Part shown: positions 9,330 to 59,165 of the stretch, in pieces
Layout: the number at the start of each line of letters is the position of its first letter
Numbering within the stretch: the first letter of the stretch is position 1
Assembly (NCBI GenBank): GCA_024734495.1
Contig: JALMQS010000187.1
Coordinates: forward strand, 5,316,304-5,380,303
Length of the DNA: 64,000 bases
Source: Forficula auricularia
Taxonomy: Eukaryota > Arthropoda > Insecta > Dermaptera > Forficulidae
Reading direction: 5' to 3'
Program-made: the position numbers and the translations under genes
Notes under the pieces: generated by a model
Database searches by the model: none
What the model was told of the DNA's origin: nothing
What the model saw: the letters and a program-made list of their open reading frames with translations, nothing else

Positions 9330-9600
9330 ATTTATTTGTTAGAGACTATAGTTTGGAAGGTTTAACCTAGTCCTTTTAGTTAGAAATATTTTATCTATTT
9401 TTATAGGTTCAAATACCTGATTGAATGTAGGTTTATTCGCTTTGTCGTAAGAGCAAGCTAGTCTCATTCATTTGTACACAGTGACCAGCTTGCTATTATG
9501 ATATAAAATAAGAGATAAATTATTTCTAATTAAAACGACTGATGATGAAGATCAAATCTTCGAAACTATAGTATTTTAACAAATAAATTATATATATATA
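9330..9600. repeat. hammerhead palindrome, subfamily A
   Basis: The left arm (from about 9340, ACTATAGTTTGGAAGG) is a degraded inverted copy of the hammerhead unit ending the right arm at 9539-9580. Between them are AAATACCTGATTGAATGTAGG and a GTGACCAGCTT block that recurs at 60690-60710 and 62560-62580. The arrangement (minus unit left, plus unit right) matches the other palindromes of this type. Confidence 0.6.
9539..9573 (+). ncRNA. hammerhead ribozyme-like motif, subfamily A
   Basis: CTGATGA is at 9539-9545. One extra T precedes a perfect 6-bp stem II (GAAGAT/ATCTTC around CAA), then GAAA at 9562-9565. The self-complementary ACTATAGT can form stem III, and A 9573 sits at the cleavage position. 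TTAAAA before the core can pair with TTTTAA after 9573 as stem I, with a 3-nt bulge. All invariant core positions are present. The extra base after CTGANGA is shared by every copy here; chrysanthemum chlorotic mottle viroid has a comparable extra base. Confidence 0.65.
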
Positions 9601-9617
9601 TATATTATACTATATAG

Positions 9618-10644
9618 CAGTGTCGTGTGGTCCATTGATGCTGTGGATGCGGCCTTGTCCCGAAATCTTAGAACGTCGAGAGTATCTTCAAAGCGTGTCA
9701 TATATTAATTTCGTTTAGCTTTATTTCGGTTAGATTTAATTTAAAATTTACGGAACTTTGTAACGTTAGAATTTCCCAGATTTCATATTTGAATAATTTT
9801 CCCTATCTTATGGAATACTTTGATTTTATCAGGTTGAAAGTAAATTAGTTCACACATGTATTCTCGACGTTTGATTTTCATTTAAAAACTATACAGAAAT
9901 TAATTGTGAATGATGAACTAAAATATGTTTTGACAGAAGTATTTTATTTGCTTTAGCCGCCTTTGTTAAGTAATATGTTGTCTATCTTATTATATATTAT
10001 GTTCAAAGCTATACGCTCGCTGTTTGCCAGTAGCGGCATCAGTCAAGTCAGTTAATAGCTACAGCTCGATCATGGAAGCCCCTGGTATTTAGACAACTAT
10101 ATCGGCAGATCAGTAAAGGGTAAGACTACCGTACGACCGGAGGGCGCATTCATGCCTAGCATCTATTTGTACACTCAACATAAAAAACTAGATACTTGAG
10201 AAATAAAAAAAATAGAATAAAATCATTTTTTTTAATACATTATTATTATGAGAACGTCAAAAACAATTTTATAATTAAGTAGACAAAATATTAATAAAAA
10301 CAAAGAGGCTAAGTGCAAGCCGCAATCGCAAAAAAAGGTATCGTAATTTTTTCCATATTATATCCAAACTAATTATTTTATAGCAATCAAAAAATACTTA
10401 TTGAAAGTACTCATACAAAGCAACTAAAATAGAAAGGTGGATTATTTTTTACTTGTCCCTGGAAGTCAAAGTGAAGATAGACTGTCCGCTCTGTCTTAAA
10501 TATCAAATGAAAAAATCTAATGTTAAATTTGAAAAATTACATTAAGCCATTGTTGATGAATTTTAGGAAGAATAAAATAATATTTTCAAAAATGAAGGGT
10601 CCTTTTTGAACAGCATTCTCTGCCTGAAAAGTCGCCCGCCCCTG
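9618..10644 (+). mobile_element. non-autonomous hAT-like element, complete (1027 bp)
   Basis: It begins CAGTGTCGTGTGGTCC and ends GTCGCCCGCCCCTG, mutated versions of the CAGTGGCG...CCGCCACTG termini of this family. Flanking octamers CTATATAG (9610-9617) and ATATGTAG (10645-10652) match at 6 of 8 positions, as expected for an old hAT insertion. A less AT-rich segment near 10005-10165 has no counterpart in the other copies and may be a captured sequence. No transposase frame. Confidence 0.65.
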
Positions 10645-10652
10645 ATATGTAG

Positions 10653-10830
10653 CTAGCGCTAGGTTCAAGCCCAGCAAATATTTGACCGGCTATAATCTGA
10701 TCCCTTCGGGGGAAGGCAATGGGAAACCACCCCTGTGAAAAATTTCCCCAGAAAAATTACAATGGAGAGAATCTCTCCATAGTAATCGCCAATGCTCAAA
10801 ATCGAGTATGGCACTTGAAGAAAAATAAGA
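10653..10830 (+). mobile_element. tRNA-derived SINE, 5'-truncated
   Basis: It starts at the B box (GGTTCAAGCCC near 10662), continues through the conserved block GGGGAAGGCAATGGGAAACC (10710-10729), and ends ATGGCACTTGAAG with an A-rich tail. The same order occurs inverted at 48075-48305. The A-box half is missing. Directly abutting the target duplication of the hAT element suggests independent insertion at the same junction. Confidence 0.7.
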
Positions 10831-11899
10831 TATATATGAATATTTATATTCTTTATGTGTTTATTTGAATCAAAAAGATGCCAAGCTAATTGATTTCTGT
10901 TTATGAGTACTTTAATAATTTTGTTTAAAACGTTATTATAATATTTTTATGAGAAATATGTATGAATATAAAAGTTCAAATTGCCAATGGTAGTAGTAGC
11001 CTTAAAATTTTTTAAGAAATCGCGAGTAATTATCTTCTACTAAATCCGAGTTCGCATGGTTAATTTTTATTTAATTTCAATATTTCCCTTCTTCGGGAGT
11101 TGAACTCGAGTACTAAAAAATCTATCACGTCCTACATGACGAACCAATCTAACATAGACTATAACTACATTATTTGACTCAAAATTTGAATCTTCATTTA
11201 TCCATCTAATGATTCTAAGTTGAGGGAGCATTCCATATATATAGTTTAAATTTAAGATTGATGAGTATTTCGAATTTACAATAAAACTCGGAGGGGGGGG
11301 GGGGGATAAAAACAACAACATGTAAAATTTATCGTTTTAGAAGAAGACAATCTCTCGCGATTTCTTAAAAACTACTAAACAAAGATAAAAGAAGACTTTC
11401 GAAACTGTTTTCATATCTTTTGATGATTGTAGGAAATAAAATAAAATTTCTATCTTTCCTTATTTGTCCAAATGTTTTTCTTGTTTAATCAATTTTTTTT
11501 CTTATCATTTTTGTTTTTATTATCAATTTAATGTTGAGAATTTAATATATAATTAAAATTCAGGAAAAAAATTATTCTAACATATGTGCAGCCACAGAAT
11601 TAAATGAGATTGAAATAAGACTCTTTAAAATCTCCAAGGAAAAAACAAATTACTGAATTATTAGTATAACTACCTTTATGTGATAATTGAGAAGAAAATA
11701 CTATTTTAAATTTAACGTGAAACAAAAAATTTAAGAGCTTGAGAAAATCACAATAAAGAGATGAAACTTTGCTCTTAAATTAAGTAATTGTTGTTTACTA
11801 TTGTTTATGAAATGCAAGATGCTAAAAAGATTTGTCTAATATTTATATAGTGATAAAATTATTATTATTATTATTATTTTATTATGAATGTTTTATAAT
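10831..11899. other. AT-rich non-coding stretch
   Basis: No gene or named repeat seen. A G run lies at 11292-11305. The minus-strand open frame across it is not convincing. Confidence 0.5.
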
Positions 11900-12862
11900 T
11901 TTTATAAAAAAAAATAAAACTGACTTCAAAAAAATTAAATGCAACAAATAAAATAATAAAACTCAAAAAATAAAATAAAATGCACTAAAAGGTATAAAAT
12001 AATAATCTAATTTAGTTACAACTAAACGACGAAATATTTACATGAAATCACTTTTTGAAGTCGGTGCCAAACATATACATTTTATGAATCAAACTCGACG
12101 GATTTTACTTAGTACGATTGGCGGGTACGCTCGCTTATATAGTTTGTTTAGCACCGACTTCAAAAAGTGATTTCATGTAAATATTTCGTCGTTTAGTTGT
12201 AACTAAATTAGATCATTATTTTATACCTTTTAGTGCATTTTATTTTATTTTTGAGTTTTATTATTTTATTTGTTGCATTTAATTTTTTTGAAGTCGGTTT
12301 TATTTTTATTTTTCTCTTTTTAGTGATGTTATTAATAGTGACTTAATATAATACCTTGCATGCATCTCGTAAGAGAAAGGGTCAGGCGAATGAATCAGAA
12401 AATGATAATAAAATTAAATTCATAAATATAGAAATTCTCTAGAAACGTTTGCGGGTTTTAAATGAACGTTTTAAGATTGATTTTTTTTAAAAGATTGTAT
12501 TTATTATAATTTCGATTATTTGCTCATAAGAATTGGATATTTACGTTAATTCGTCATTGATCCTATCATTAGAACTTGACTAAATTAATATGGGACCACC
12601 CCTAGATACCCTCTTTCCAATATAAAAAGAATCATCGAAATCGGTTCATAAACAAAGAAGTTATGCCTAAATAAACATAGCAAAAAATGTCCAATACCAA
12701 TGAAAGAAACGGGACCAATCGGAAACTAGACTGAACCTAATGCAAAAAAAATCATCAAAATCGGTTCACAATTGGCGAAGATATCTGGTAACATAGACAC
12801 ACAAAAAAAATTCAGTCGAATTGAGAAACTCCTCCTTTTTTGAAGTCGGTTAAAAAGTGAAG
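11900..12862 (-). mobile_element. ACCGACTTC element (family R4), copy 1
   Basis: On minus it starts TTAACCGACTTCAAAAAAGG (complement of 12840-12859) and ends in a large palindrome at 11900-12310. Palindrome arms carry CAACTAAACGACGAAATATT and its complement around a loop at about 12075-12160. The motif ACCGACTTCAAAAA or its near variant occurs at the start and at each palindrome arm end. An open frame related to 15677-15898 lies at about 12358-12500 on plus, broken by a TAG. Related AT-rich elements are common in insects; the superfamily is unclear. Confidence 0.65.
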
Positions 12863-13460: not shown

Positions 13461-14262
13461 TTTTTTTTTTTTTTATAAAGATACTGATACAAGAAGAAGT
13501 TGCACCAAGAAGGTACAACCTCTGTAGTCCGTGGTGGACCCTTGTAACGTGAAGATAAGGGGAGATTTAGTGATTGGGTAGAAGTCGAAGGTATCTGTGG
13601 ATGCTGGTCTTGAAAGATTGAAGGTCATAAGTTGCTGGAAAGACGGTCGGGGGAAGAGAGTTCCAGTCTCTAGATGTCATGGGGATAAATGAATTGGCGA
13701 ATGCGTTTGTTCGATTAGTATCCAGTTTAAGCGCGTAGGGGTGTTGAGTTTTAGAAAATCGTGTATTCCGCGCAAATGAAGCCCTTGGTGGGATTATCGA
13801 TTTAATTTCGTCAGAACAAAAGCCATGGTAGTATCTATAAAAAAGGGAAAGGGCGGAGACAGATCTACGATGGGCTAGGGAGTCGAGAGTGTCAGTTAAT
13901 GTAGGATCGCCTATCAGTCTGATAGCTCATCTCTGAATTGCGTCCAGGGTTTCAAGAGAATACTTGGAGGACCCTCTCCACAAATGCGAGCAATATTCAA
14001 GACAGGGGCGAATTTGAGCCTTGTATAATATAAGGAGTTGAGTGGGGGTGAAAAATCGTTTGGTTAGGAAAAGAAAGCCAAGCTTACATGCTGCAGCCTT
14101 TGCTACTGAGATAATATGGTCATTCCAAGAGAGGTCAGAACCTAAGGAGACACCTAACAATGATATTTTATTACGAAATTCCAATGAGCTCGAATCAAAG
14201 GAAATGTCCGGAAGGTTCCTATCTGCGCGCCTAGAAATTAGGCAGCATTGTGTTTTACCAGC
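13461..14262 (-). mobile_element. 5'-truncated LINE, second copy
   Basis: The poly(A) tail is the T run at 13461-13474. The 3' untranslated region includes GCACCAAGAAGGTACAACC near 13502, shared with the short tail at 54579-54648. It belongs to the same family as the LINE at 5961 but with a different truncation point near 14262. No clear target duplication is seen. Confidence 0.8.
13567..14255 (-). pseudogene. LINE reverse transcriptase C-terminus with in-frame stop
   Basis: On minus from about 14255 it reads KTQCCLISRRADRNLPDI, then LLGVSLGSDLSWNDHI, IRPCLEYCSHLWRG, TLDAIQR and, after an in-frame TGA at 13929-13927 (arginine codon in the sister copy), IRLIGDPTLTDTLDSLAHRR, FYRYYHGFCSDEIKS and SRDWNSLPPTVFP, ending TAA at 13569-13567. 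These are the conserved segments after the catalytic box of Jockey/CR1-type elements. The YADD box itself is lost to truncation. Codon-level similarity to 6082-6915 is high, so both come from one family. Confidence 0.85.
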
Positions 14263-14696
14263 ATGGCGAAAAGTCGCAAACGTACGTACCAAATCTTTAA
14301 AAAATTTAATTCTAATTTTATTTTTTGAATCAAAATTTATGGTTTGTAAAATTGTAGAAAAAAGAATTGTTATAAGAATAGATTATTGAGTCATTGTGCT
14401 TTTATTAGGTACGTACAGAAACTTGAACTTGGCCGCTTTTCTATTAATAAATAGAATCCGATTTTCCAATTCTACTAATTTATTAATAAATAGCCTATAT
14501 TAGAGACTTAGAAGTTTATATTGACCCCTGGAACATACTTATATTATAATTTAAGAAATTTTATTAACTTATATATTGAAAACTTTTCAACGATTTGTTA
14601 TCTAACTATTGATTTTATTGATTTTTTTTATTATTTCACTAAAAAAATAAATAAATAAATAAAATCAATGGTTTATAAAAAATTTATTTTTTCAAA

Positions 14697-15070
14697 TTTT
14701 ACAATAGAGAAATCAATGAGGTTGTTTTCTGCTTGATGCAAATAAACTTATATTTATATGTATATAACTAATATAAATATGTATATATTATATAATCTAT
14801 AGTTTTTATCTTCAATCTTTTTAATTAATTGGTAATATTTTATCTTATGAGTTCAAATACCCGATTAGATGTTTTTGTTTTGTTGGAATAGTGAGCTAGT
14901 CACATTATAAATAATATATATCCATATAAAATCCCTAGTAGCACAATGTTTCAAGCTATATAGTTACTATAGTTACTATATAGTTTGAAACATTGTACTA
15001 CTAGGGATATGTTTGTATGTTTAATTGCATCAAGCAGAGGACAACCCCTTTGTTTCTCTCTATGAATCAA
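14697..15070. repeat. subfamily A palindrome shell
   Basis: CTTGATGCAAATAAAC at 14732-14747 recurs inverted as ATTGCATCAAGCAGAGGACA at 15022-15041. A near-perfect central palindrome spans about 14931-15007 (ATCCCTAGTAGCACAATG against its complement). The same outer sequences bracket hammerheads at 52911-53260 and 60605-62640. Here no intact hammerhead core remains between them. Confidence 0.6.
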
Positions 15071-15202
15071 CAACTCTGCTACTCTCGGCAAAATAAAAAC
15101 TTTTCCCTTAAAATCACCTTTGAATTCAGTGAGTAGATTCAAAAGAGAACATACCTTAGCATTATTTGCTTGGAATCCAGGACATTGTCGTCTAGAATTC
15201 AT
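14951..15202 (-). other. conserved coding-like segment in subfamily A elements
   Basis: The minus frame encodes 83 residues including FILPRVAELLIHREKQRGC and PLLDAIKHT. The same peptide with conservative changes (R to K, I to N) is encoded on plus at 52877-52957 and, in part, on minus near 53222-53285. Repeated preservation of the reading frame in separated copies suggests descent from a real element-encoded or captured coding sequence. I do not recognise the protein. A possible donor GTATGT at about 15154 (minus) hints at a spliced origin. Confidence 0.35.
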
Positions 15203-24110: not shown

Positions 24111-24161
24111 TACCAGAATTTAAAATTAAAAAGAATATTTATATATCGCTTTGAACTAGAG

Positions 24162-24750: not shown

Positions 24751-25609
24751 AAAAAGTAAAAAATTACCGAGCTCGATCCGCCAGTTACTAATATTTAACA
24801 GAAGGAATGGAATTGATTTAATTAATAATAGTTATTATCTCATAAATAGGATTAGAATGAACTTTATAATCTGAGATGATAAATGGTTAATAGATCTCGG
24901 TCTGTTTGGTTTGAAGTCTAATGGGATGCATAAGGGCAAGCAAATAGCTGACTAGCCGAGCAGTAGACTGGACTCTGTTCTCCTTAAGATTTCAGACAGA
25001 GGAGAAAAACGACAGTTTAATTCAATCAGGGCCGAAGAATAGGCCTAATTGATTGACCAGACTCCTATATTGGAGAGATTGAAGAAGGCGCTTGTCGGGG
25101 TTGCATGTCGGATGTCGCTGGTTCGAATCCCACGACGGGGTCAATTTAAAGGGTCAATGAGTGGCTAAAGAAAATTTGACCTCTTACACAATTGATTCCG
25201 CATTCTTTAGTAAATATCATTTCCGAATGTCGGCTTTTTTCAATCGTACGGTGGCAAACGTAAATAAATTGACGTGGAGTTATTTATTATTCTTTTCTAC
25301 TCTACGTATCTAATAGGATTTTATTGATCTCCCCCTTTTCAAATTCGAACAATGAAAATTCAGTTCATTTGATCAATCGTAGCGAATTTCTTAAATGACC
25401 TCTCTCTATTTATCGACCGATTTTATATTTATTCAGGTGACTTTGATTTTTACTTTCTACTAGTAAGTGGAAGTATTGGGACTGCAAATATTCAGATTTT
25501 AGTTTAAACAAAAAAAATACAAGTTTTAGGGTCTCACCAATTAATATGGGTATATTATTCATTAAGAGAAATTATTTTATTATTAATTATTATATAACTT
25601 TTCTAAAAT
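24751..25609. other. AT-rich stretch with tRNA-like remnant
   Basis: At 25085-25142 a tRNA-like 3' half has a perfect B box (GGTTCGAATCC at 25122-25132) inside an imperfect arm GTCG...CGAC. There is no matching 5' acceptor strand, so it is probably a SINE or tRNA fragment. The rest has no supportable feature. Confidence 0.4.
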
Positions 25610-26875
25610 ACGATAAATTTATCAGTTTACATATCTAGAAATTATTTTATTATTTTTATTGAAAAAAGGAAAGATATGCTTGCCCAGTACTCGCTTGTAA
25701 TTCTCTTTTTCCTCTCTAAATAGTAAACATACAATTTAATTGTAAACTGATATAAACTTAGTTTTGTATTTTCAAGTATGTAAATGAACAACGCAAGTCG
25801 AATAATTTATGTAAATATATGCACAGTTAATTCAATATATCTATAATTATTTTAGCATTTCTGAAAAAGGAGAAATGACACTTGAGCACCTGACAGATTG
25901 GAGGTTCGAATTCTACAAGGTGATTAATTGTCATTTTTCATTTTTTTTTTTTTTTTTTTGAAAAATAATAAAATAATATTAAAAGACTTGATTTGAGAAT
26001 TTTTTCTTATTAATTACTATAATAACTTTTCGAGGATATATTCTCAAGAAATTGCTCTCATTTTTTGTAAAAAGATAAGACAATATATTTATTTAAAAAA
26101 AAATTATTGTCACGATCGACGTTTCGACTACTTCATCCATCATCAGCCTAAAATTTTATTTTAATATATAACTTACAAAATCACAACCTTCAAAAATTTT
26201 GCATTTTCAATATTAATAAAGTAATTATTTATGTACCTTAGAACTATAATAATAATAATAAAAATAATTACTTTATTAATATTGAAAATGTAATATTTTT
26301 TTTTTGTAAGTTCTATATTAAAATAAAATTTTAGGTTGATGATGAAACTAAAATAAAGTGATCAAAACGTTCCTATTGACAATAAAATTTTGTTTTTGTT
26401 TTTATAAAAAATGAGAGCCATTTCTTGAGTATATATCCTCGAAAGGTTATATAATAATTAATACGAAAAAATTCTCAAATCAAGTCTTATTAATATTATT
26501 TTATTATTTTTCAAAAAAAATGAAAAATGACAATTAATCACATTGTAGAATTCGAACCTCCAATTCTGTCAGGTACTCAAGGGTCATTTCTCCTTTTTTT
26601 CAAAAATAACAAAATAATTTCTAGATATGTAGAATTAACTGTCATAATTATTTAATAAATTATTCGACTTCCGTTGTTCATTTACATACTTGAAAATACA
26701 AATTAAAACTAAGTTTATATCAGTTTACAATTAAATTTGTATTTTACTATTTTGAGGGGAAAAGAGAAATTACAAGTGAGTGCTGGGCGGGCATTTGTCT
26801 TTCCTTTTTTTCAATAAAAATAATAAATAATTTCTAGATATGTAAACTGATAAATTTATCATATTTTAGATTTAA
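25610..26875. repeat. 1.27-kb fold-back repeat with tRNA-like and hammerhead motifs in its arms
   Basis: The left arm 25610-26220 is the imperfect complement of 26260-26875. Matching landmarks, outside in: ATAAATTTATCAGTTTACAT, the CTTGTAATTCTCTTTT block, a B-box-like GGTTCGAATTC at 25903-25913 (inverted at about 26552), TTGATTTGAGAATTTTTTCT, and a hammerhead-like motif at 26118-26146 with a degraded partner at 26336-26372. The loop is about 40 bp. Arms have diverged moderately. No coding sequence. Confidence 0.75.
26118..26146 (-). ncRNA. hammerhead-like motif, weak stem II
   Basis: On minus, CTGATGA (26146-26140), GAAA (26125-26122) and C-GTC are in order, giving the ACGT palindromic stem III seen in other copies. 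Stem II between them pairs poorly (2-3 bp) and stem I is not evident. The core is intact but the fold is doubtful; probably a decayed copy. Confidence 0.4.
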
Positions 26876-27204
26876 TTGTTATTTTTAAATGAACAGCGCA
26901 AGTCAAATAATTTCTAGATATGTAGAATTAACTCTCATAATTATTTAATAAATGTCTTGCGCGTTTCATTTAAATGTAAACTTTAAATTAAGTAAAATAT
27001 TGTTTTCCAAAATAGTTTATTTTAATATTTTCCAACATTTTAGAGAAGTTTGAACTTTGGTTATGTTTTTGTATATATGGAGAGTAATTTTTAGCCTGGT
27101 GTTGGTGGTTTTTTGGAAAATTATTATTTACTATGAGTTATTCACTAGGTCACATGTTTCACGTGTAAGAAATAAAAGAAAGAGAGAGTTTTCTCAATAC
27201 ATAT

Positions 27205-27230
27205 ACTTCGGGCTGTCAACCCATCATCAG
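27205..27230 (-). ncRNA. hammerhead-like motif, left arm, subfamily D
   Basis: On minus, CTGATGA (27230-27224), one T, a GG...CC-type stem II, then GAAG instead of GAAA. The changed third A of GAAA would remove the first base pair of stem III, so activity is unlikely. Partner of the plus motif at 27271. Confidence 0.45.
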
Positions 27231-27270
27231 GAGATATAGAAAATTACTAGTACTCAGTTTTCTTAGACTC

Positions 27271-27300
27271 CTGATGATGGGCTAACCCCCGAAATATATC
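27271..27300 (+). ncRNA. hammerhead ribozyme-like motif, right arm, subfamily D
   Basis: CTGATGA at 27271-27277, T, then GGG...CCC stem II, GAAA at 27291-27294, a TATAT segment that can give stem III, and C 27300 at the cleavage position. Stem I is short (TC before the core with GA after the cleavage site). Core bases are complete. The related motif at 38862-38901 has a better stem I, which supports the fold for this subfamily. Confidence 0.5.
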
Positions 27301-27559
27301 GAATTCAAAACTCAAATTTTGTTTTATTTCTTTTTTTGTGAAACCTACCTCGTATCTTACTCAAGTTTTATTATTATATTAAAATGTTTCACCTAGAACC
27401 AACACCGAACTCCTTAAAAGTTAGAAAATTACTAACTTAACTTTAGAATGCCATAGTATATATGTGTACAAAAGGCACACATATATTTACAAGTGAAAGA
27501 AATTTTTAACAGGTCTTGGAGGTATAGAATTTTATTATACAGACTTAGTGAATAACTCA

Positions 27560-36970: not shown

Positions 36971-37599
36971 ATATATATATTTGTATGTTTATTTGCATCA
37001 AGCAGAGGACAATCTTATTGATTTTTCTTTATGAAAACATATTATGATCATAAAACTAACTTTTTGTTATAGATTCTTTGATCAAGTAGTACCGCTTTAA
37101 ATTCTTTACCAATCCTGAAAAGGCACACCCTGCGTATTTCTTCTAGAATTTTCTTAAACCAACAACTGACCCCGCCATCCCACCCTCTCCTTTATAAACG
37201 AGTTGAAGCCCACACAAGTCAATTAGTGAAATGAAACTTAAAGTAGAGAGAGAGAGAGAGCTAGCGACAGATGAGAATACCTCATCATTTCAAAAAGATT
37301 ACTTTTTACTACAAAACCTTCTCTCATTAAGACTGAGAAAACGGAGATTTGGCTGCCCGCACCACGAGAATTGAAAATTGTATCTTTTGTGCTTAATATA
37401 AAAGTACCGGACGGAACGAGCGTTGCTCGATAATATTTGGCTTTAGTTAAAAGCGATTTATTAATATTATTTTTAATTTCAAATTCAGGTAAAAAGGTTG
37501 ATTTTTATTTGCAGTCAGAATTAGAGAAAACTGAAATAAAATTTAATTTTTAATCAATCGTATACATAGTAAATTTATAACAGGAATAGTTATAACCTA
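36971..37599. other. mixed repeat remnants and unique sequence
   Basis: GCATCAAGCAGAGGACAATC at 36992-37011 is the outer block of subfamily A palindromes. 37120-37440 is a little less AT-rich and unique, with a (GA)n tract at 37245-37260. 37440-37500 is related to 24070-24130, the flank of subfamily B. No gene supported. Confidence 0.35.
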
Positions 37600-37638
37600 T
37601 AGGGAATTGGATAAAATTAAAAACACAGAGTTTTTATT

Positions 37639-37690
37639 AAATGGGCCAGACATTTCGTCAATTTATTTTGACTTTTTCAGTGGCCCATTT
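37639..37690 (-). ncRNA. hammerhead-like motif with perfect 10-bp stem I, G8 changed
   Basis: On minus: AAATGGGCCA (37690-37681), CTGAAAA, one A, stem II GTCAA/TTGAC, GAAA, T-GTC, TGGCCCATTT (37648-37639). Stem I is a perfect 10-bp helix, stem II a perfect 5-bp helix and the cleavage triplet is GTC. However the invariant G8 of CTGANGA is A, and this base is the general acid in hammerhead catalysis, so this copy should be inactive. The geometry strongly supports hammerhead ancestry. Confidence 0.65.
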
Positions 37691-37701
37691 TATCCCTCTA
37701 A

Positions 37702-37882
37702 GGGCTGATTGGTGTACGTAAAGTAAATGCTTTTACCACTAACAAACGGTAGATGGTAAATGGAGCCGTTGGGATGGCCAATCAGATGACAGGCACCTGA
37801 ATGTGCCATCCCAGCGTCTCCATTTACCATCTACCGTTTGTTAGTGGTAAAAAGCATTTACTTTGCGACATACAACCGGCCC
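37702..37882. mobile_element. palindromic MITE nested in a hammerhead palindrome
   Basis: Almost entirely palindromic: TAAATGCTTTTACCACTAAC with CGGTAGATGGTAAATGGAG recurs inverted around an internal loop of about 50 bp. Ends are GGGCTGATTG and, complemented, GGGCCGGTTG. It is bordered by TAA and TTA. Compared with the other palindrome arm (CTCTTTGTC), the insert replaces or splits a 3-base TTT, compatible with a PIF/Harbinger-like 3-bp target, though not proven. Confidence 0.65.
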
Positions 37883-38201
37883 TTAGTCAAAAAACAATTT
37901 TACTATTAGACAAAACATCATTAATTTTTCTTTAACAAATTCTTGGCTCAAATTAATCAACAATCTTGAACAATTCTTTAACAATTAGAATATTTGTCGT
38001 CGTTTTTATTACACGTTATCTCTGTATAAAAATTAGAGAACATTTGTTATCTCTATATAAAAACGATGACAAAAATTATACTAGTAATTGTTAAAGAAAA
38101 GTTGCTTCCAAGATTGTTGATTAATTTGAAGCAAGAATTTGTTCAAGAAAGATTAATGATGTTTTGTCTTATAGTGAAATTGTTTTTGACAAAGAGTGAT
38201 T

Positions 38202-38252
38202 AAATGGGCCACAGAGAAAGTCAAAATAAATTGACGAAGCGTCTGGCCCATT
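38202..38252 (+). ncRNA. hammerhead-like motif, decayed core, subfamily C
   Basis: Perfect 10-bp stem I (AAATGGGCCA at 38202-38211 with TGGCCCATTT at 38243-38252), stem II GTCAA/TTGAC, and CGTC. The core reads CAGAGAA in place of CTGANGA and GAAG in place of GAAA. Partner of 37639-37690 and, like it, lacks G8. Confidence 0.55.
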
Positions 38253-38329
38253 TAATAAAAACTCTGTGTTTTTAATTTTATCCAATTCCCTACTATTCCT
38301 GTTATTAAAATTTAATTTATTTTTTTGCC

Positions 38330-38600: not shown

Positions 38601-38861
38601 AATACATCTAATTAATTAAATTTCATAATTTAATATTTGTAACGAACTATTAGTTGGATTTAAAATTAAAATAAACAATTAGATGATAAAAGGAATTTTA
38701 AAAAAAAACTTAATTATATTAATTTTTTGAGACATCCACTTCTGAATATTTACTTTATTTAAGAAAAAATTAAGCCAATTAAAAAATTATAAAGGGTTGG
38801 AATTTGGAATTAGTGGTGCTTCACAAAATAAAAATTGAATTAAAGTTTGAGTTTACTGGAT

Positions 38862-38901
38862 ACTCTATATATTTCGGGTTTTTTAGTCCATCATCAGGAG
38901 T
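38862..38901 (-). ncRNA. hammerhead ribozyme-like motif, subfamily D
   Basis: On minus: ACTC (38901-38898), CTGATGA (38897-38891), T, GG...CC stem II around an A-rich loop, GAAA (38875-38872), TATAT giving a minimal stem III, A 38866 at the cleavage position, then GAGT (38865-38862) pairing with ACTC as stem I. All invariant core bases are present. Stem II is only 2-3 bp, so stability is uncertain. No inverted partner was found nearby. Confidence 0.5.
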
Positions 38902-38937
38902 TTATACAAAAGACTCACTAATTCCAATCATTTGTAA

Positions 38938-39075: not shown

Positions 39076-39715
39076 CAGATCGAGTTGATCCAAAAACCCT
39101 ATAATCCTTGATTTTCGTAAACCTTGCTTTTTTATCTTCAGTCTAATATAAATATTGAACATGGATACTTTTGTATTTAGTTAAAATAAAAATACATGGA
39201 TCAAGAAGAGTGCAAATAAGTTCACTGACTTTCAATTTCTTAATTATGGACTCCACTTACGTTTTCCCCTTTAATTAGAAATCAATATTTATTTAGCTTT
39301 TTAAATGAGAAATCAGAAATTCAATATTATATACAATAGAACAATATGTTAGGGGAAGGAAAGACTGTCAATTCTTCTTCTCTGCCATTTCTATAGAGAA
39401 TAACTGACAACTCACACTGGACATGTTTGTATATATTTATATAGGTATAATATAATATATATACATATTCTTCAATGTTATTATTTATTGAATATTAAAT
39501 TAAATTATTGTAAAAACAATCAATATAACGTTTATTAATGGATCAGAACGTTGGACGATAAATTAATCCCTTTACCAATTGTTTAAAATTTAAATAATAA
39601 TAAACATTGATTTCTATTTTTTATAATTGACAAAGGGATGAATTTATCTCGAAACGTTATAAACATTATATTGATTAGATTGGAGTAATTTTTGGAGACG
39701 GACTGATAAGTGGAA
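39076..39715. other. AT-rich stretch with decayed palindrome
   Basis: 39500-39690 is an imperfect palindrome: AAAACAATCAATATAACGTT on the left and AACGTTATAAACATTATATT on the right, with CTCGAAACGTTAT at 39639-39651 reminiscent of a hammerhead 3' half. The CTGANGA half is not recognisable. The rest shows no feature. Confidence 0.4.
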
Positions 39716-39779
39716 ATTGAGTGGATATCGATGAGGGAGTCCAAAAAACGAAGATAATTTACACTATCTTTTTATTCAT

Positions 39780-39823
39780 AAAACCGACGTTTCGGAGGCT
39801 ATTCCGTCCTTCCTCAGGGTTTT
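39780..39823 (-). ncRNA. hammerhead ribozyme-like motif, left arm, subfamily B
   Basis: On minus: AAAACC (39823-39818), CTGAGGA (39817-39811), A, stem II with one mismatched pair, GAAA (39793-39790), C, GTC (39788-39786), then GGTTTT (39785-39780) giving a perfect 6-bp stem I. Invariant core bases and the GTC triplet are present. Stem III would be the self-complementary ACGT, which has no room for a loop, so cleavage would need a dimer. Confidence 0.65.
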
Positions 39824-40056
39824 AAAAAGTCAGTGAAGGAAATCCAATGCGAAATTTCCCTCTGTCTCCTCGTTCAGTGGCAGGAACAATAATATATTGT
39901 ATTTCATTCTCAGCAGAGATTATAATGTAGTAATAATAAAATACAGTAATCATTACTACATTATAATTCTGCTGAGAATGAAATACAATATATTATTGTT
40001 ACTGCCACTGAAAAAGAACGAGAATGTCTCATTGGATTTTCTTCACTGACTTTTCA

Positions 40057-40098
40057 AAACCCTGAAGAAGGAGGGAATAGCCTCCGAAACGTCGGTTT
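40057..40098 (+). ncRNA. hammerhead ribozyme-like motif, complete, subfamily B
   Basis: Stem I AAACC (40057-40061) with GGTTT (40094-40098); core CTGAAGA (40062-40068); extra A 40069; stem II GGAGG (40070-40074) with CCTCC (40081-40085); GAAA (40086-40089); C 40090; GTC (40091-40093), cleavage after C 40093. Every invariant position is present. Stem III is the palindrome ACGT, as in hammerheads that act as dimers. Similar minimal-stem-III type I hammerheads are known from Penelope-like elements. Activity is inferred, not shown. Confidence 0.75.
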
Positions 40099-40281
40099 CA
40101 TAAATAAAAAGATAGTGTAAATTATCTTCTTTTTTTGGTCTGCCTCATCGATATCCACTCAATTATAATGATTGTTTTAACAGAATTTTATTGAATATTT
40201 AAATTATTATTATGAACAAAATATAAAAGTAAAAATTAATTAAAAAATAAAATTCTAGAGTGATATGATTTGATTCTAACC

Positions 40282-48305: not shown

Positions 48306-48313
48306 TATATTTT

Positions 48314-52723: not shown

Positions 52724-52998
52724 GATTTTTATAAAGGAAAAAAAATATAAAAATACAAAAAAGTCAATTTTTCTTAAATACTTTTTATTTAAATTGAAAG
52801 TTTCTTTTTGCCAAGAGTAGCAGAGTTTTTATAAATTAAAGGAGACAATAAATGAGTGTAATTGAAAAGTTTTTGTTTTGCCGAGAGTAGCAGAGTTGTT
52901 GATTCACAAAGAGAAACAAAGAGGTTGTCCTCTGCTTGATGCAAATAAACATACACACATATATATCCAGTATATATATATATTATTTATTTGTTTGA

Positions 52999-53033
52999 GA
53001 TTATAGTTTCGAAGACTTGGTCTTCATCATCAG
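52999..53033 (-). ncRNA. hammerhead ribozyme-like motif, left arm, subfamily A
   Basis: On minus: CTGATGA (53033-53027), T, perfect 6-bp stem II GAAGAC/GTCTTC, GAAA (53010-53007), then CTATAATC. The triplet before cleavage is ATC instead of GTC, which breaks one stem III pair relative to the plus copy. Confidence 0.55.
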
Positions 53034-53122
53034 TCTTTTTTAATTATAAATATTATTTTTCATGGAGTCAATACCGTATGGATATTGACTCCATGAAAAA
53101 CAATATTTATAATTAAAAAAGA

Positions 53123-53157
53123 CTGATGATGAACACCAAGTCTTCGAAACTATAGTC
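53123..53157 (+). ncRNA. hammerhead ribozyme-like motif, right arm, subfamily A
   Basis: CTGATGA (53123-53129), T, stem II with one mismatch (GAACAC/GTCTTC), GAAA (53146-53149), self-complementary ACTATAGT, C 53157 at the cleavage position. The minus partner has the perfect stem II while this copy has the better stem III, so the ancestral motif was complete. Confidence 0.6.
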
Positions 53158-53319
53158 TCAAACAAATAAATAATATATATATATATACAGATATATCATC
53201 TCGATATATACGAGTATGTGTGTATGTTTATTTGCATCAGGCAGAGGACAGCCTCTTTGTTTCTCTTTGTGAATAAATGAGTGTGTCTTCTGCTGGAATA
53301 ATACATTTTTTATTTATTT

Positions 53320-53470
53320 ATTACTAGTCTATAGTTTCGAGGGCTTTGCTCTCTTCATTAGTCTTTACAATTGATTCACAGGAATTGATGTGTGAAAGTA
53401 ATAGAGTGATGAAGTGGGAAAAGCCCTCGAAACTATAGTCCCGTAATAAATAAATTTAAAAATTTATTTT
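53320..53470. repeat. hammerhead-like inverted pair, subfamily A variant
   Basis: Left (minus): CTAATGA, stem II GAG(A)GC...GCCCTC, GAAACTATAG. Right (plus): GTGATGA, ...AAAGCCCTC, GAAACTATAGTCC. Each has a single substitution in the CTGATGA box at a different position. The unit adjoins the palindrome at 52840-53290. Confidence 0.5.
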
Positions 53471-54217
53471 TCCAGCAGAAGACACACTCTTTTATTGTCT
53501 CCTTTACTTTTTGTTTGCTTAAATTTTTTCATCCTAATTTTTTTTCTTCCTTTTAGTATAACTATAAGATATGACTGATAATAATAATAATAATTTTATA
53601 TAAATATACCTATTGTATTAATGTCTAGGTATGATATTTGTAAGTTCCTATCATGTTACATTTTAATTACTTAACAAATACTTGTCCATTTATTTGTTCA
53701 TTCTCTGTTTGTCTTTCAACACAAAAAAATCATTTTCGAGAATCTCATAACACATTTTAACTTTTTTTTTTTTTTTATGAGGAAAAAGTTTCAAAAAAAT
53801 ACAAATATTTTTTGTTGAGGAAAAATTTTCGAAAAAACACAATTACAAATATCATTAAATTTTAAAATGTATTATTTGATCGGTGGTATGAAATACTATA
53901 TATGGAATTTGTTTATATTATTTTAATTTTTCATAATAAAAAGATTTATGCGCTTTTTACAATGATATGATTCTATTTTGTTAATATCAATATTTAATGT
54001 GTTATGAGCTTAAAATACAACTATATATGTATATATGCTTTGTATATAAAACTATATAAATAATATAAATAGAATCTCCAAATAAAACTATGTTAATTTG
54101 CATTTTCGAATTTTTTTTTCCTTTTTCCCTAACAAGAACCCAGGTCTGCGGTTAAAAATAATTTTATGTGATTCTTATATCCACAAAAAAAAAAAAAATA
54201 TCCACAAATAGGTTTAA
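53471..54217. other. AT-rich non-coding stretch
   Basis: Nothing recognisable apart from homopolymer and ATA-type simple sequence. Confidence 0.5.
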
Positions 54218-54528
54218 CCGAGGGGTGAACCGGGACCTAATATGCTGTACACCTACTTCCACTTGTACTTCCAAATATTTCCAAGTACTTACAAATATTT
54301 CCAAGTAATTCCAAATATTTTCAAGTAATTCCAAATATTTCCAAGTAATTTCAAATATTTCCAAGTAATTCCAAATATTTCCAAGTACTTCCAAATAGTT
54401 CCAAGCACTTCCAAATATTTCGAAGTATGTACTTTCAAATATTTCCAAGTACTTCCAAATATTTCCAGGTACTTCCAAAATACTTCCAAAGAGGTGTACA
54501 CCTACTTCCAATCGCGGATCAACCCTCG
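54218..54528 (-). mobile_element. minisatellite-bearing TIR element, copy 6 (311 bp)
   Basis: Inverted orientation: CGAGGGGTGAACCGGGA at the left and GCGGATCAACCCTCG at the right. Exact 8-bp target duplications GGTTTAAC at 54210-54217 and 54529-54536. About 11 minisatellite units. Confidence 0.92.
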
Positions 54529-54578
54529 GGTTTAACTAAGATCCAAATTTCTTCTTCTTTTCACGATTCAAGGCTCCA

Positions 54579-54648
54579 TCCATGACTACAGATGTTTCAC
54601 TTTTTTGGTGCAACCTCTTCTTGTATCAATATCATTACAAAAAAAGTA
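54579..54648 (+). mobile_element. very short LINE 3' tail
   Basis: ACTACAGATGTTTCAC, TTTTTTGGTGCAACCTCTTC and TTGTATCAATATCATTAC match the complement of 13475-13535, the 3' end of the LINE at 13461. A short A run follows. Extreme 5' truncation (about 70 bp). Confidence 0.6.
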
Positions 54649-54882
54649 AACTTCAAGTTCGTGTGATTCGATTTTCAATCAAATTCAACTAGGTTCTATA
54701 TCTCAGTATATAATGATTAATGACTAAATACCATATACAATTTTGTTTCAAAATTCCAATTAATTTATGAGGTAGAGTACACACAATATTTTGACCACAT
54801 GCTACGAAAATATCACTTTTAGGTAATATACTAAATAAGACTTTTTAGCTATTAATGTAATGTAATATAAGTACATTAATTT

Positions 54883-55586
54883 TTACTTTACCATACAGGG
54901 TATGGTCAAATATTGTAATCGTGCATGAAAAATGTGGGTTTTTTCCTTCTTTTTTTCGAAATATCTCAAAAACGGCTGAAACTATTTTGATTAAAAAAAT
55001 TGAGCGAAATCATGACATTTCGCTCTACAAAAAGCTTTTATAAGTGAACATCGAAAAAATTATATTTTTCGAGATAATAATTGTTTTGTCAAAATGTCTA
55101 TTAGTCTGTCTGGTTGTCTGTTAGTCTATGCGTTACCAAATTTTTGTGCACGAGCTAGCTCAAAAACTAGTGTGAATATCGAAACCAAATTTGACACGTA
55201 GTTTTGGTCCATTGAGATTAAGAGCTGATTAGATTTTGGTGCATATCGACCTAAAATTAAGGGGGGTGGATGGGGGGTTAAAAATTAAAAATCTAGGCCG
55301 TTTGAGCAAACTCAACCAAATTTTGTATACATAATCAGTGGACCCCCAGAAGTCTAAAAATGAAAAAACTAACCGCCAAACATGGGGGGGGGTATAGGGT
55401 CAAAACATGAAAATCTAAGGTTATTTGAGCAAACTCAACCAAATTTTGTATACATAATCAGCTGGACCCCAGAAGTATAAAAATCCAAAAACTAACCCCC
55501 CCCTCCCATGATTATAAATAATTTTAGGGGCCAGGTTGTATGGTAAAGTCAAGTGGATGGCCACATCAGAACACGTCAGCTTATTT
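54883..55586 (+). mobile_element. module-repeat element (family R2), full copy (about 704 bp)
   Basis: Starts TTACTTTACCATACAGGGTA with a CCATAC/GTATGG hairpin. The conserved half follows (TCGAGATAATAATTGTTTTG near 55068), then two modules with CCAAATTTTGTATACATAAT, and the end block ATGGTAAAGTCAAGTGGATG to CACGTCAGCTTATTT. Reference copy for the family. Non-coding. Confidence 0.8.
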
Positions 55587-56722
55587 TTATCAAAATCTAA
55601 TAAGCACTTTTTAAATTATTAGAAAAATATATGCTTATCAAATTAATTAAAAAACTCGATAGTGCTGCTACCAAGGAGAAGAGTCATAAACTAGATAAAA
55701 GAAATTAATATAAAAAATCAATAGTACTATTAAATCAAGTAAAACGCCGGCTACTGTACTAGCAAGAAAACTGCTTACTTAGTGCTGCCACCTTAGAGAC
55801 GATTTGTGAACTATATACCTTCGACTGAGAAATCAATAAAAATATTGAACCTAGTAGACAAACCATTCATGATCTAATATTTATAAAGATCACAACACAA
55901 CCTAAATAGTAAGTATTCTGTGTTTTTTTTCAAAAAAGTTTAAAAATTAAATATATAAGATTACGTTTTAAAATATAATTAAATACACACACAGATAAAT
56001 AAAAGGGTAGTATTTCTTAAAAACAGATTAATACTTAAATTACAAATGTTCAATAGTAAATTAGATTGTATTAATAAAAAAAATCTCAGTATATCTTACT
56101 CGAGAGTGCTTTAAGAAGATTGTCGTGTGATTCGTGAGTAACAAACGTCGCATCAGCAAGCAAAATAATAATATTAAATAACCGAAACAAGATTCAAAAT
56201 AAAAAAAAAAAACTATATTTTTTTGGATAAGAGGTTGAGCACTTAAGAAATTCCATTGAGGTGAATAACCTGAATAGACAGGAGGGGAGAATGCTAACCT
56301 ATATATTTTCCTTCTCTCTAACCTAACTGAAGCCCTCTTCCGGAGAAAAGATCTATGTCAATTAATTTTTTTACTAGACCAGTCTGCCCTTAAATCTATC
56401 ACAAACTGGATGTAAAACAACTCAACCAGAGAAAATGTAACATTCCAACTATTTTCAAATTTTATTTTACTTTTCCATAATCATCAACAATGGCATTTTA
56501 AGATTATAACATAAATAAAGAATTGGGAATCTGAACTAAAATCCATGGTTTAAGGTAGTTGTTCCGCCAAATGGGTTTTCTTAGAATTTTTTTTAAATTT
56601 AGACAGACATATTATTTAAATACTTCTGCATCGATTGGTGGCAAAACGAAACTTATGAACAATATAGTTCCAGAGATATTAAATTTCAAAAATAGAGTTT
56701 TTCAGACTCTTATACATTGCAC
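55587..56722. other. AT-rich non-coding stretch
   Basis: Nothing recognisable. Confidence 0.5.
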
Positions 56723-57077
56723 CGAGGGGTGATCTGCGATTGGAAGTAGGTGTACACCTCTTTGGAAGTACTTAGAAATATTTGGAAGTACTTGGAAATA
56801 TTTGGAAGTACTTGGAAATATTTGAAAGTATTTGGAAATATTTGGAAATACTTGGGAATATTTGGAAGTACTTGGAAATATTTGGAAGTGCTTAGAAATA
56901 TTTGGAAGCACTTGGAAATATTTGTAAGTACTTGGAAATATTTGTAATTACTTGGAACTATTTGCAATTAATTGAAAATATTTGGAAGTACTTGAAAATA
57001 TTTGGAAGTACTTGGAAATATTTGGAAGTACAAGTGGAAGTAGGTGTACAGCATATTAGGTCGCGGTTCACCCCTCG
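56723..57077 (+). mobile_element. minisatellite-bearing TIR element, copy 7 (355 bp)
   Basis: CGAGGGGTGATCTGCGA left end and TCGCGGTTCACCCCTCG right end; target duplications CATTGCAC (56715-56722) and CACTGCAC (57078-57085) match at 7 of 8 positions. About 14 units, with several degenerate ones near 56940-56990. Confidence 0.9.
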
Positions 57078-57085
57078 CACTGCAC

Positions 57086-57809
57086 GATACGGGATATCGG
57101 AAAGTTTACATACATATTTAATTATAATTAAGAAACCCTTCTTACCATTTTTATAAAAAACTAAACCAACATTAAACAATAACCAATACATATTTTAAGA
57201 CAATTTTGATTCATAGTTACATCACAGTTTTTGAGATAATAATGAATAAATAAAGAAAAACGTATGAAAAAAAAATTTACACTAAAAACAATTTGGCAAC
57301 AGCGCATTTATTTAACCAGCGAAAGATGTATAAAGCGCGCATGCGCTAGATTTTTTCAAAATTATAATTTTCATAAGGTGTAACATAGACGTTGATCACA
57401 TTTGTTAAAAAATAACAAAACGATTTTTATAGAAATAAATCGACCTTTAAAATGTATTTTATCTGTCATTTTAATATAAAAATATTCAATCTCTTACAAT
57501 ATTACCAGATTTGTCAAACGAGCACGGGATTGGCTAGAATTGGTACATAAACAGCAAAAAGTTTTGGACTTATGAATCATGAATCCTTATTGTCTGTTCT
57601 ATATACTCTAGCATTAACTTTTTGCAAGTATTGTCGCGAAACAACTACAAAATTTAACCGGTCTTATTTTCTAATTAAATACATTATCTATTCATAAATA
57701 GTTATTTTGAAGGAAATAATTTAAAAATTTTTATAAATTTTCATGAGAAAGGAAGAACTTCTCGCGAAAGTTTTGGTATTCTAATAATCGTTTCTAGATT
57801 GTTTTATAA
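57086..57809. other. AT-rich non-coding stretch
   Basis: Nothing recognisable. Confidence 0.5.
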
Positions 57810-57960
57810 AACAATTGTATATTTTATATTCATATTTTTTAGTAATTTTCAAATTAAATAATAATTATTTTGATTATTTATGTCCATTGATTAAATTATT
57901 TAAGTTGTTAAAGGGAAATAAGGACTATATTTTTTATGCAGATAATTTATATTTTATTGC

Positions 57961-57992
57961 CAACGTTTCGTCAACTTTGTTGAGTTCTTCAG
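57961..57992 (-). ncRNA. hammerhead ribozyme-like motif, left arm, subfamily E
   Basis: On minus: CTGAAGA (57992-57986), A, a stem II in which TCAAC pairs GTTGA, GAAA (57969-57966), C, GTT (57964-57962). After the cleavage position come GGC and TAAAA, which pair with GC(A) and TTTTA upstream of the core around an internal loop, the layout of a type I stem I. Core complete. Confidence 0.6.
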
Positions 57993-58149
57993 TGCTCTAA
58001 AAAGTGATAAGGCCTCAATTAATACATATTATAACATTTTCAAATCAAAATCGGGATTGATCTCAAAAACCACTTCATAAAAATGACAAATATCCAGGGA
58101 AGTTAACTATTTGCTATGTAAAATGAGTTTTGTATGTGTGTTAATTTTG

Positions 58150-58862
58150 TTTTTGTATGTATTTATTTATTTAACAAAGTATACAAACATAGGACCTTAG
58201 GTCCCACCTAGTGTTTATACATAATTTAGCAACAATATTTTACAAATTTGGCAAAAGAGTTCACCAATACACAAATTTTATGGGGAAGAAGAGAGAAAAA
58301 AAAGTAGAGAAAGATTAGAAGACATAGAGAAAATAAGAGTAAGGAGTATCAGTTATTGGGTGGGATCCATAAAGAACGAAGATCTGAGAGCACCAAGAGT
58401 CGGGTTTGCGTGAAATTTGGATGGAAGTTCATTCCAAAGCCTTGCACCCGCCAATTTGAAGGAATGAAAGAAGTGTTTAGTTTTACAGTGCACCTGCACT
58501 AGCGTTGTCTTCCTGGTGGAGCGACCGACGACAAATAGATTTTCTAAGTAAGACGGGCAAATGAATTTTTCAGAATTTAATAGCTTATAAATAATCACAC
58601 AACACCGCCAAGCGTAAAATTTAGAAAGATCTGTGTTTAAGATGAGTTTTTTATCCTGGTCCGAAAGATGGCTACGTGGTTTTAGATTTAAGACATAGCG
58701 GGTGCATGAATTCAAAGCTATTTCAAGTCTTTTGCCCGATTTACTGTCGAGGGAATTCGAAAAGATTATGTCGCAGTACTGGAAAAGGGGTGCTAACAAA
58801 CTCTTGCTTAAATTGAGGCGAAGATTATATGGCGTGAGATATGAGAGTCGCTTCAGTCGCTT
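58150..58862 (-). mobile_element. 5'-truncated LINE of a second family
   Basis: Minus-strand non-LTR element fragment whose 3' untranslated part is at about 58150-58352. It contains GTCCCACCTAGTGTTTATAC on plus near 58201. The tail on minus is an AAATAAATAAATAC-type repeat. It is unrelated in detail to the LINEs at 5961 and 13461. Confidence 0.7.
58353..58862 (-). pseudogene. LINE reverse transcriptase C-terminal fragment, open
   Basis: From about 58862 the frame reads LKRLSYLTPYNLRLNLSKSL, then LLAPLFQYCDIIFSN, LEIALNSCTRYVLNLKPRSH, WRCCVIIYKLLN, and LAGARLWNELPSKF, ending TAA at 58355-58353. This is the post-catalytic C-terminal region of a Jockey/CR1-like reverse transcriptase ORF. The frame is open through about 170 codons without stops, suggesting a fairly young copy. 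The catalytic domain is missing. Confidence 0.75.
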
Positions 58863-58954
58863 TCGTCATTGAAGTGGTTTTTGAGATCAATTTTGATTTT
58901 GATTTGAAAATGTTATAATCTGTATTAGTTAAGGGCCTATCACTTTTTAGAGCC

Positions 58955-58985
58955 CTGAAGAAGTCAAAGAAGTTGACGAAACGTT
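58955..58985 (+). ncRNA. hammerhead ribozyme-like motif, right arm, subfamily E
   Basis: CTGAAGA (58955-58961), A, perfect 5-bp stem II GTCAA/TTGAC around AGAAG, GAAA (58978-58981), C, GTT (58983-58985). TTTTA (58945-58949) pairs with TAAAA (58991-58995) as an outer stem I helix across an internal loop. Core complete; stem III again the palindromic ACGT. Confidence 0.65.
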
Positions 58986-59165
58986 GACAATAAAATATAA
59001 ATTGTCTGCATAAAAAATATAGTCCTTATTTCCCTTTAATAAATTAAATAATTTAACCAATGGACATAAATAATCAAAATAATTATTATTTAATATGAAA
59101 ATTACTAAAAAATATGAATAAAAATATATACAATTGTTTTATAAAACAATCTTCAAACGATTATT

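Follow-up and report, generated by a model that had tools for sequence, protein, structure and literature searches.

Inverted Penelope-like terminal repeats with predicted hammerhead ribozymes in Forficula auricularia, and arm joints at the predicted ribozyme cut site

Minimal hammerhead ribozymes (HHRs) were reportedly described in Penelope-like elements (PLEs) by Cervera and De la Pena in 2014. Besides such ribozymes, inverted pseudo-long terminal repeats (pLTRs), palindromes at their junction, a tail on one side and short target-site duplications (TSDs) are already known from PLEs. In this study, we analysed a stretch of 64,000 nucleotides from the insect Forficula auricularia (contig JALMQS010000187.1, positions 5,316,304 to 5,380,303; hereafter the window), in which short fold-back repeats carry hammerhead motifs in inverted pairs. 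A sequence-only reading of the window had considered such inverted pairs less described, yet head-to-head inverted pLTRs, one of them tailed, are reported in the account of the Penelope elements of Adineta vaga (PMC3846280), a paper in which the word "hammerhead" has 0 occurrences. The repeats of the window resemble the Adineta vaga elements, as presented there, in their inverted head-to-head pLTRs and in the palindromes at the inverted junction (PMC3846280). The 31-bp tail on one inverted pLTR and the TSDs of 8-10 bp given in that account also have counterparts here in a one-sided tail and short TSDs, and unrelated sequence is captured between the pLTRs in both (PMC3846280).

The partner element of our repeats is likewise similar to PAc, the Poseidon element of Anolis carolinensis, which is described in the relevant parts of PMC11167929 with an open reading frame (ORF) for GIY-YIG and reverse transcriptase (RT), tandem copies and an HHR at the junction of pLTR and ORF. 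PAc also has two start sites of reverse transcription that bound the tail, both target strands are cut and extended, and the start site does not differ between strands (PMC11167929). According to the same account, this purified system did not need HHR cleavage for insertion in vitro (PMC11167929). Minimal PLE hammerheads, as characterised in PMC6155905 and PMC7229834, resemble those of the window in having no real stem III, in lying in terminal repeats and in being numerous in some animal genomes. Animal retrozymes are, like the present repeats, small, non-coding and hammerhead-bearing, and PLE mobilisation has been suggested for them in the passages on their spread (PMC7229834).

We consider it likely that the fold-backs are ORF-less PLE insertions, made by head-to-head joining of two cDNAs, with some of the templates cut by the HHR. 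A matching autonomous element shows the predicted PLE origin for one family, called A, and for families B to E the same origin is suggested by shared architecture or the HHR core.

Hammerhead motifs and their Penelope-like partner

All ten CTGANGA...GAAA motifs listed in the sequence-only reading were present, at the positions and on the strands claimed. A loose HHR pattern had 21 matches in the window, compared with a mean of 3.46 and a maximum of 8 in 100 shuffles, and a tighter core had 13 matches against a shuffle mean of 0.96. Eight of these 13 had a stem II of at least 3 bp (0.09 in shuffles), and two combined it with a stem I of at least 3 bp (0.005). The strict descriptor requiring both stems picked out just the window's family B pair; it misses family A because the stem I adjoining the family A core is 2 bp long. 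We also sampled six 10-kb stretches at round coordinates on five contigs (58,054 non-N bases) and found 10 HHR cores versus 0.8 in shuffles, 9 of them with a stem II of at least 3 bp (0.04 expected) and 7 with a stem I of at least 3 bp as well (0.0 in 200 shuffles). This density of about 1 per 6 kb, extrapolated from a small sample, would very roughly give 10^5 HHR cores in the 1.06 Gb genome.

To assess the stems, 29 motifs were picked by hand from the window, the genome sample and flanks. Among the first four pairs of stem I, 86 of 116 cells were paired (shuffled mean 50.9, maximum 71 in 5000 shuffles), and pairs 2 and 3 of stem II each occurred as three Watson-Crick types. Of the 34 motifs with a stem II of at least 2 bp, 33 pair best when a single additional base is allowed between CTGANGA and stem II; 9242-9268 is the sole exception. 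The motifs thus combine a CTGANGA / stem II / GAAA core with stems I and II that covary across families, which bears out the earlier claim of hammerheads, and on this core and covariation they are predicted to be hammerhead ribozymes. The Rfam hammerhead models, proposed earlier as a check, recognised none of them: no hammerhead family matched the window at its gathering score or at E<=10. This fits minimal PLE-type HHRs without a real stem III, as outlined in PMC6155905. A genome search with Rfam RF00163 gave no match and is uninformative, as 0 of 14 control genomes matched either. MicroRNA-like Rfam matches in the window did not reach their gathering scores and were disregarded, and a search of a phage collection gave no match. 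That chance motifs lie in chance AT-rich inverted repeats is hardly credible: the window is AT-rich (G+C 26-34% by 4-kb stretch) and the Rfam hammerhead search was empty, yet the motif excess over shuffles, the stem covariation and the genome-wide families with TSDs already contradict this explanation.

A genome search for GIY-YIG (150 matches scored of 3423 candidates) revealed several matches in ORFs of about 860 aa. One group (C563) forms a tandem array with spacings of 2909 and 2908 bp, and locus L083 from this array has an open frame of 858 codons, in which the intact ORF that begins at the first Met encodes 827 aa. The ORF contains RVT_1 (1.5e-16) and GIY-YIG (7.6e-6) domains, and its relatives among the matches listed were unnamed or animal proteins, the named ones mostly from insects, which makes an arthropod the probable host. 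In L083, a pLTR with a minimal HHR occupies positions 649-840, and a tail, which is the start of the open frame, occupies 841-886; the pLTR start is repeated at 649 and 3558, as tandem copies forming pLTRs would have it. Positions 649-885 matched the arm plus tail of one palindrome copy (L035) at 98.3%, and the layout recurs at a second locus, L090. Because the pLTR and tail of L083 and L090 match their arms, the family A palindromes are, on sequence comparison, best identified as head-to-head pLTRs of an L083-type PLE without the rest of its ORF: the single RT plus GIY-YIG ORF lies in the partner, and the palindromes themselves are ORF-less. Among eight GIY-YIG loci examined, L083, L086, L087 and L090 matched family A, and L084 matched over about 50 nt of the tail only. 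The Penelope link drawn in the sequence-only reading was therefore borne out by an intact RT plus GIY-YIG partner that carries the pLTR, HHR and tail of family A.

One-sided tails and two-ended insertion

The family A insertion of the window is a head-to-head pLTR palindrome at 52859..53277 (-), which matched L083 positions 649-884 and 649-844 by BLAST. Its tail-bearing arm is 52859-53088 (-) and its tail-less arm 53068-53277 (+), with the palindrome centre at about 53078. The HHR cores, identified by pattern match and stem comparison, lie at 53007..53033 (-) and 53123..53149 (+). The insertion is flanked by a 13-nt exact TSD, with the left copy AATAAATGAGTGT at 52847..52859 and the right copy at 53272..53284 (locus L001 in the genome search). 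It adjoins another HHR palindrome, a related head-to-head one at 53272..53496 with a different stem II (GAGGGC/GCCCTC type) whose intact form lies at L010:1971, and it appears to have inserted beside or into that palindrome.

We searched the genome with window positions 52890-53290 and scored 40 of 4492 first-look candidate places. The results showed 80 matches, on both strands at each of these 40 best places, which makes the palindrome a general feature of the best family A matches scored. All 40 scored copies were analysed (24 + 16 loci, with 6 same-place loci dropped). The palindromes were 357-382 bp long, and each of the 40 carried a single tail, at most 46 nt long, at one end (partial in L015), with a second tail in 0/40. 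An exact TSD of at least 8 bp was found in 27 of the copies, compared with 0.7% of mismatched flank pairs, and the median of all 40 was 12. Family A thus has the tail on one pLTR and the TSDs of variable length expected of PLEs. The orientation of the loop relative to the tail was 29 : 10, with 1 undecided. Of the 45 carriers of variants present in at least 6 copies (5 columns; end column 0 and loop-side column 233 excluded), 37 had the variant on both arms, and singleton variants were on one arm in 104/110.

Unusual insertions of family A or of a family-A-like kind were also observed. The family-A-like L052:5238-5528 has an asymmetric joint with ends at PLE positions 730 and 655, and in the likewise family-A-like L076:2754-2928 the arms meet within an AT palindrome of the element itself, around position 774; these unusual joints are compatible with the joining of separate cDNA ends. 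The family A insertion L092, one of several nested insertions among these elements, went into another hammerhead, whose core contains the target duplication (ctgatgatgaa, by eye). Two known classes were rejected for these repeats: retrozymes carry HHRs in direct tandem repeats, and the arms were inverted at the 40 scored places of each of families A and B; Foldback or miniature inverted-repeat transposable element (MITE) DNA transposons have symmetrical ends and TSDs of fixed length, and here the tail is one-sided and the TSDs vary.

Family B is represented in the window by a palindrome at 39715..40164, in minus orientation with the tail on the left and HHR cores at 39790-39817 (-) and 40062-40089 (+). 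A genome search with window positions 39700-40180 scored 40 of 3641 candidates and gave 80 matches, again on both strands at each place, of which 21 distinct places were analysed; L060 and L063 among them look like mutual duplicates. A tail was found on one arm only in 21/21 copies (diverged in L067) and a second tail in 0/21, and 17/21 had a TSD of at least 8 bp versus 3.05% of mismatched flank pairs, so that the one-armed tail and the TSDs of PLEs recur in this family. Among 17 copies whose centres were parsed by pattern, 16 centres were distinct, the matching pair being L060/L063, and the remaining 4 centres differed from one another by eye. Variants present in at least 3 copies occurred on both arms in 38/46 carriers (8 columns), and singleton variants were on one arm in 73/76. 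These varied centres with arm-concordant variants indicate that the centre of the family B palindrome is made anew at insertion. From the variant patterns, both arms of one copy in families A and B derive from one source.

In the insertion that we propose, the PLE protein would cleave an AT-rich target on both strands, with about 12 nt between the two cuts, and each target end would prime reverse transcription inside the PLE RNA. The proximal start site would yield the tail-less arm and the distal one the tail-bearing arm. Each cDNA would be extended as far as the RNA 5' end, and the two cDNA 3' termini would then be joined, at short palindromic microhomologies or blunt. That 5' end would lie near the pLTR start or, in a subset of family A, where HHR self-cleavage left it. 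As every copy analysed has one arm at each of the two boundaries, a paired target-primed reaction with joining of the cDNA 3' ends is the simplest reading, and we infer a single RNA molecule as the template of the two cDNAs.

Two other origins of the palindrome were weighed against these data. Self-priming has been proposed for Penelope elements in the discussion of PMC3846280, and a cDNA started at the tail could reach the RNA 5' end, fold and copy its own arm, so that a single reverse transcription would suffice. This would explain why the arms of one copy share common variants, and the built-in hairpin of the PLE at L083 position 649 and the L076 centre at an internal AT palindrome would suit it. 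Copying back should nevertheless reach the tail and the target, yet no second tail was seen in either family, and the loop orientation in 10 of the 40 family A copies agrees with a first cDNA that lacked a tail and from which no tail could have been templated; we regard this origin as unlikely. Inheritance of the palindrome as a unit, in a non-autonomous MITE-like or retrozyme-like parasite mobilised by the PLE, seems less probable still. The thousands of first-look candidates for both families are in its favour, as are the nearly constant size and centre of family A, although these copies were chosen as the best full-palindrome matches. Against it, the family B centres vary between copies, common variants arise on both arms jointly, family A has arms that correspond to an autonomous PLE's pLTR, and a one-sided tail with variable TSDs is unlike a cut-and-paste MITE.

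That the inverted arrangement is itself a selected feature of the ribozymes was unsupported: the structure is a known one of PLE insertion, the family B centre is remade, and the HHRs of L035 are predicted to pair across the arms. In the minimum free energy (MFE) fold of L035, the one palindromic transcript folded, all 35 HHR nucleotides pair with the opposite arm, and stem II forms in the MFE folds of its single arm and of the PLE RNA. A transcript of the finished palindrome would be expected to form a single long hairpin; the two ribozymes of such a palindrome therefore probably do not function as a pair, and the inverted ribozymes are best seen as a by-product of insertion.

Joints at the predicted cut site

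We also considered where the two arms of family A copies are joined near the HHR. A first joint pattern matched 85 places per strand, of which 50 were listed, and in 17 of these 50 the arms were fused directly as TTTGA/TCAAA, that is, at GTC^TCAAAC. Eight of the 17 were retrieved and all eight were family A, with the tail-bearing arm beginning at L083 position 737, the first base 3' of the predicted HHR cut. The other arm also ran from 737, over about 100 nt, in 7/8 copies, and in L094 it matched 737-760 only. All eight had the tail on one side, shortened in L097.

A wider joint pattern matched 161 places, of which the first 50 were scored over a range that ends at +6. The results showed that 48 of 100 arm ends lay at +1, the predicted cut, compared with 12, 5, 9, 10 and 6 at +2 to +6 and 10 upstream, and that 38 of the 50 joints had at least one end at +1. 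When each distinct joint was counted once, +1 held 29/68 ends and was present in 24/34 joints, while any other position held at most 8 ends. Uniform ends simulated under an arbitrary model gave a mean of 7.1 and a maximum of 18. Some of the scored joints sit in repetitive AT-rich sequence and are only putatively of PLE origin. By eye, neither GATC nor any other evident palindrome lies at L083 position 737, and a +1/+1 joint is thus not explicable by palindrome annealing. Because these joints sit exactly at the predicted scissile phosphate, the 5' ends of some family A templates may have been left by HHR cutting. Our preferred reading is that HHR cleavage preceded reverse transcription in a minority of family A insertions, and the cut-site joints suggest, indirectly, that the predicted HHRs self-cleave.

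The peak may also have a cause other than cleavage, namely that the RT stops at the folded HHR or that end joining favours certain sequences. The enzyme could be blocked by the folded ribozyme, and a control stretch of the arm, described below, shows that sequence alone, as a palindrome, can yield a sharp peak. A block, however, should halt the RT before it enters stem I, at +3 or at positions farther downstream, which hold fewer ends, and by eye the PLE cut site has no palindrome that a +1/+1 joint could use. We therefore hold such a cause to be doubtful, if worth keeping in view, and prefer cutting of the template by the HHR.

Several points weigh against this account of cleavage and paired priming, beginning with the coverage of 50 of the 161 places already given. 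In the control stretch of the family A arm, which has no ribozyme (135 places versus 161 at the cut site, 50 listed), 56/100 ends fell on one position, at the PLE's TGCA palindrome, and 23 of the 50 listed joints were GATGCATC, which overlaps that palindrome. Such a peak is as expected for annealing of cDNA ends, and it means that cleavage is proved neither by the raw number of joints nor by the sharpness of a peak; what speaks for it is that the ends lie at the predicted cut, where there is no palindrome. Clustering at TGCA would also suit a single cDNA that folds back, whereas the direct +1/+1 joints and many family B centres resemble end joining. The cut-site signal of family B was weak, with 7/42 ends at +1 versus 12 at +4, in a T-run, and one further joint overlapping +1. 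In the 40 full-length palindromes of family A the start, at position 649, lies well upstream of the cut, so their templates were uncut at that HHR. PAc is reported to insert in vitro without HHR cleavage, and none of the reads described ended at the HHR site (PMC11167929). As for the arms, the 19 family A variant entries with at least 3 carriers were on both arms in just 42/109 carriers, and we read the one-arm entries, which are mostly low-count, as recurrent or end mutations. Arm concordance shows a common source and does not require one RNA molecule; a source locus would suffice. Finally, a full-length Penelope RT partner, which the sequence-only reading had proposed to look for in each subfamily, was found for family A in L083; no autonomous partner of families B to E was found among the eight GIY-YIG loci examined, none of which matches a B element and 3 of which have no assignable pLTR.

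In its fullest form, the account would have HHR cleavage in vivo determine where some of the template RNAs begin, with both target ends priming cDNA from one source RNA at two start sites, the cDNA ends joined head to head, and the genome keeping a record of cutting at base resolution. We give this form even chances.

Other window features and comparison with known systems

Fold-backs surround most of the motifs, as the sequence-only reading had claimed, but several cores are weak or without an intact partner. Its rule that the minus motif is always left and the plus motif always right was broken by a tail-to-tail pair of decayed cores at 60782-60862 (+) and 61190-61270 (-), within rearranged family-A-like relics at 60606..62653. 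Family C (57777..59171, by inverted-repeat comparison) has inverted arms at 57777-58077 and 58870-59171 and HHR cores at 57966-57992 (-) and 58955-58981 (+). Its spacer of about 790 bp contains an ORF at 58356-58865 (-) that by eye resembles the end of a long interspersed nuclear element (LINE) RT; Pfam gave no match for this ORF, which is perhaps a captured or inserted LINE end. The family E palindrome (25602..26870) has a core at 26122-26146 (-) with 2 stem II pairs and, by eye, a decayed partner near 26331-26370 (+). Family D comprises a palindrome at 27167..27332, with cores at 27190-27230 (-, decayed) and 27271-27294 (+), and a copy at 38820..38904 (-) with a core at 38872-38897, for which a fold-back search of the window found no inverted partner arm.

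A family-A-like palindrome at 9327..9605 has a core at 9539-9565 (+) and an 8-nt deletion in its left-arm HHR. Palindromes beyond those listed earlier were found at 14698-15112, 53302-53496, 37543-38316 and 50757-51025. The first is a family-A-like head-to-head pair in which an HHR match is no longer present, and its right arm ends in a tail (PLE positions 781-886) in frame with the start of the PLE ORF. The last two are window copies of a sixth HHR family, whose intact cores lie at L051:6791 and L051:7024; the copy at 37543..38316 is without an intact core, and the second copy is at 50757-51025.

Repeats of other kinds were also observed. Another palindromic family of about 400 bp occurs at 11895-12341, 15908-16335 and 61575-61985 and at L002, L014, L021 and L049; the HHR patterns used found no core in it, and some copies have long common flanking sequence on one side. 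Frames resembling the C-terminus of a jockey-like LINE RT by eye lie at 6085-7117 (-), 13570-14386 (-) and in the family C spacer, and two such frames tested had no Pfam RT match. Inverted and repeated arrays at 51753-57194, with a unit of apparently about 20 bp, translate as KYFQVLPNISKYFQ-like repeats in several frames and are probably another mobile or satellite-like family. A tRNA-like gene with a long intron-like insert lies at 62358-62453 (Rfam tRNA, 45.3 bits), and because its 3' end sits within an 81-bp direct repeat (62076-62156 / 62436-62516), a tRNA-derived repeat is suggested. Six dispersed copies of a repeat of about 130 bp, possibly SINE-like (short interspersed nuclear element), were found at 38935-39064, 18462-18594, 22603-22740, 24624-24762, 32420-32555 and 54877-55017, with 81-87% identity to the first.

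If the proposed insertion is correct, it accounts for a large class of hairpin-forming repeats in this genome that may produce double-stranded RNA, and a fossil record of ribozyme cutting would be readable in any PLE-bearing genome. Joints at a predicted scissile phosphate would offer a purely genomic test of in vivo cleavage before or during reverse transcription. The two-ended, one-tailed, remade palindrome also bears on the completion of PLE insertion, steps of which are called "yet to be validated" in PMC11167929. Searches of open-licence PMC papers listed no title or abstract that treats HHR cut sites at the junctions of PLE insertions, and abundant ORF-less pairs, remade centres with concordant arms and a joint peak at the predicted cut were absent from these search results.

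The known systems differ from the present one in several respects. The structures of Adineta vaga mostly include ORF sequence and have a low copy number in the account given, whereas ORF-less pairs are abundant here (PMC3846280). That account invokes self-priming on an antisense template, while the family B centres vary between copies (PMC3846280). In animal retrozymes as presented, canonical HHRs lie in tandem repeats of about 170-400 nt that give rise to circular RNA, in contrast to the inverted arms and minimal HHRs of the present repeats (PMC7229834). The pertinent parts of PMC6155905 and PMC7229834, which deal with minimal PLE hammerheads, discuss neither inverted pairs nor the junctions of insertions. 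For PAc, none of the reads described end at the HHR site, whereas the family A joints peak at the predicted cut (PMC11167929).

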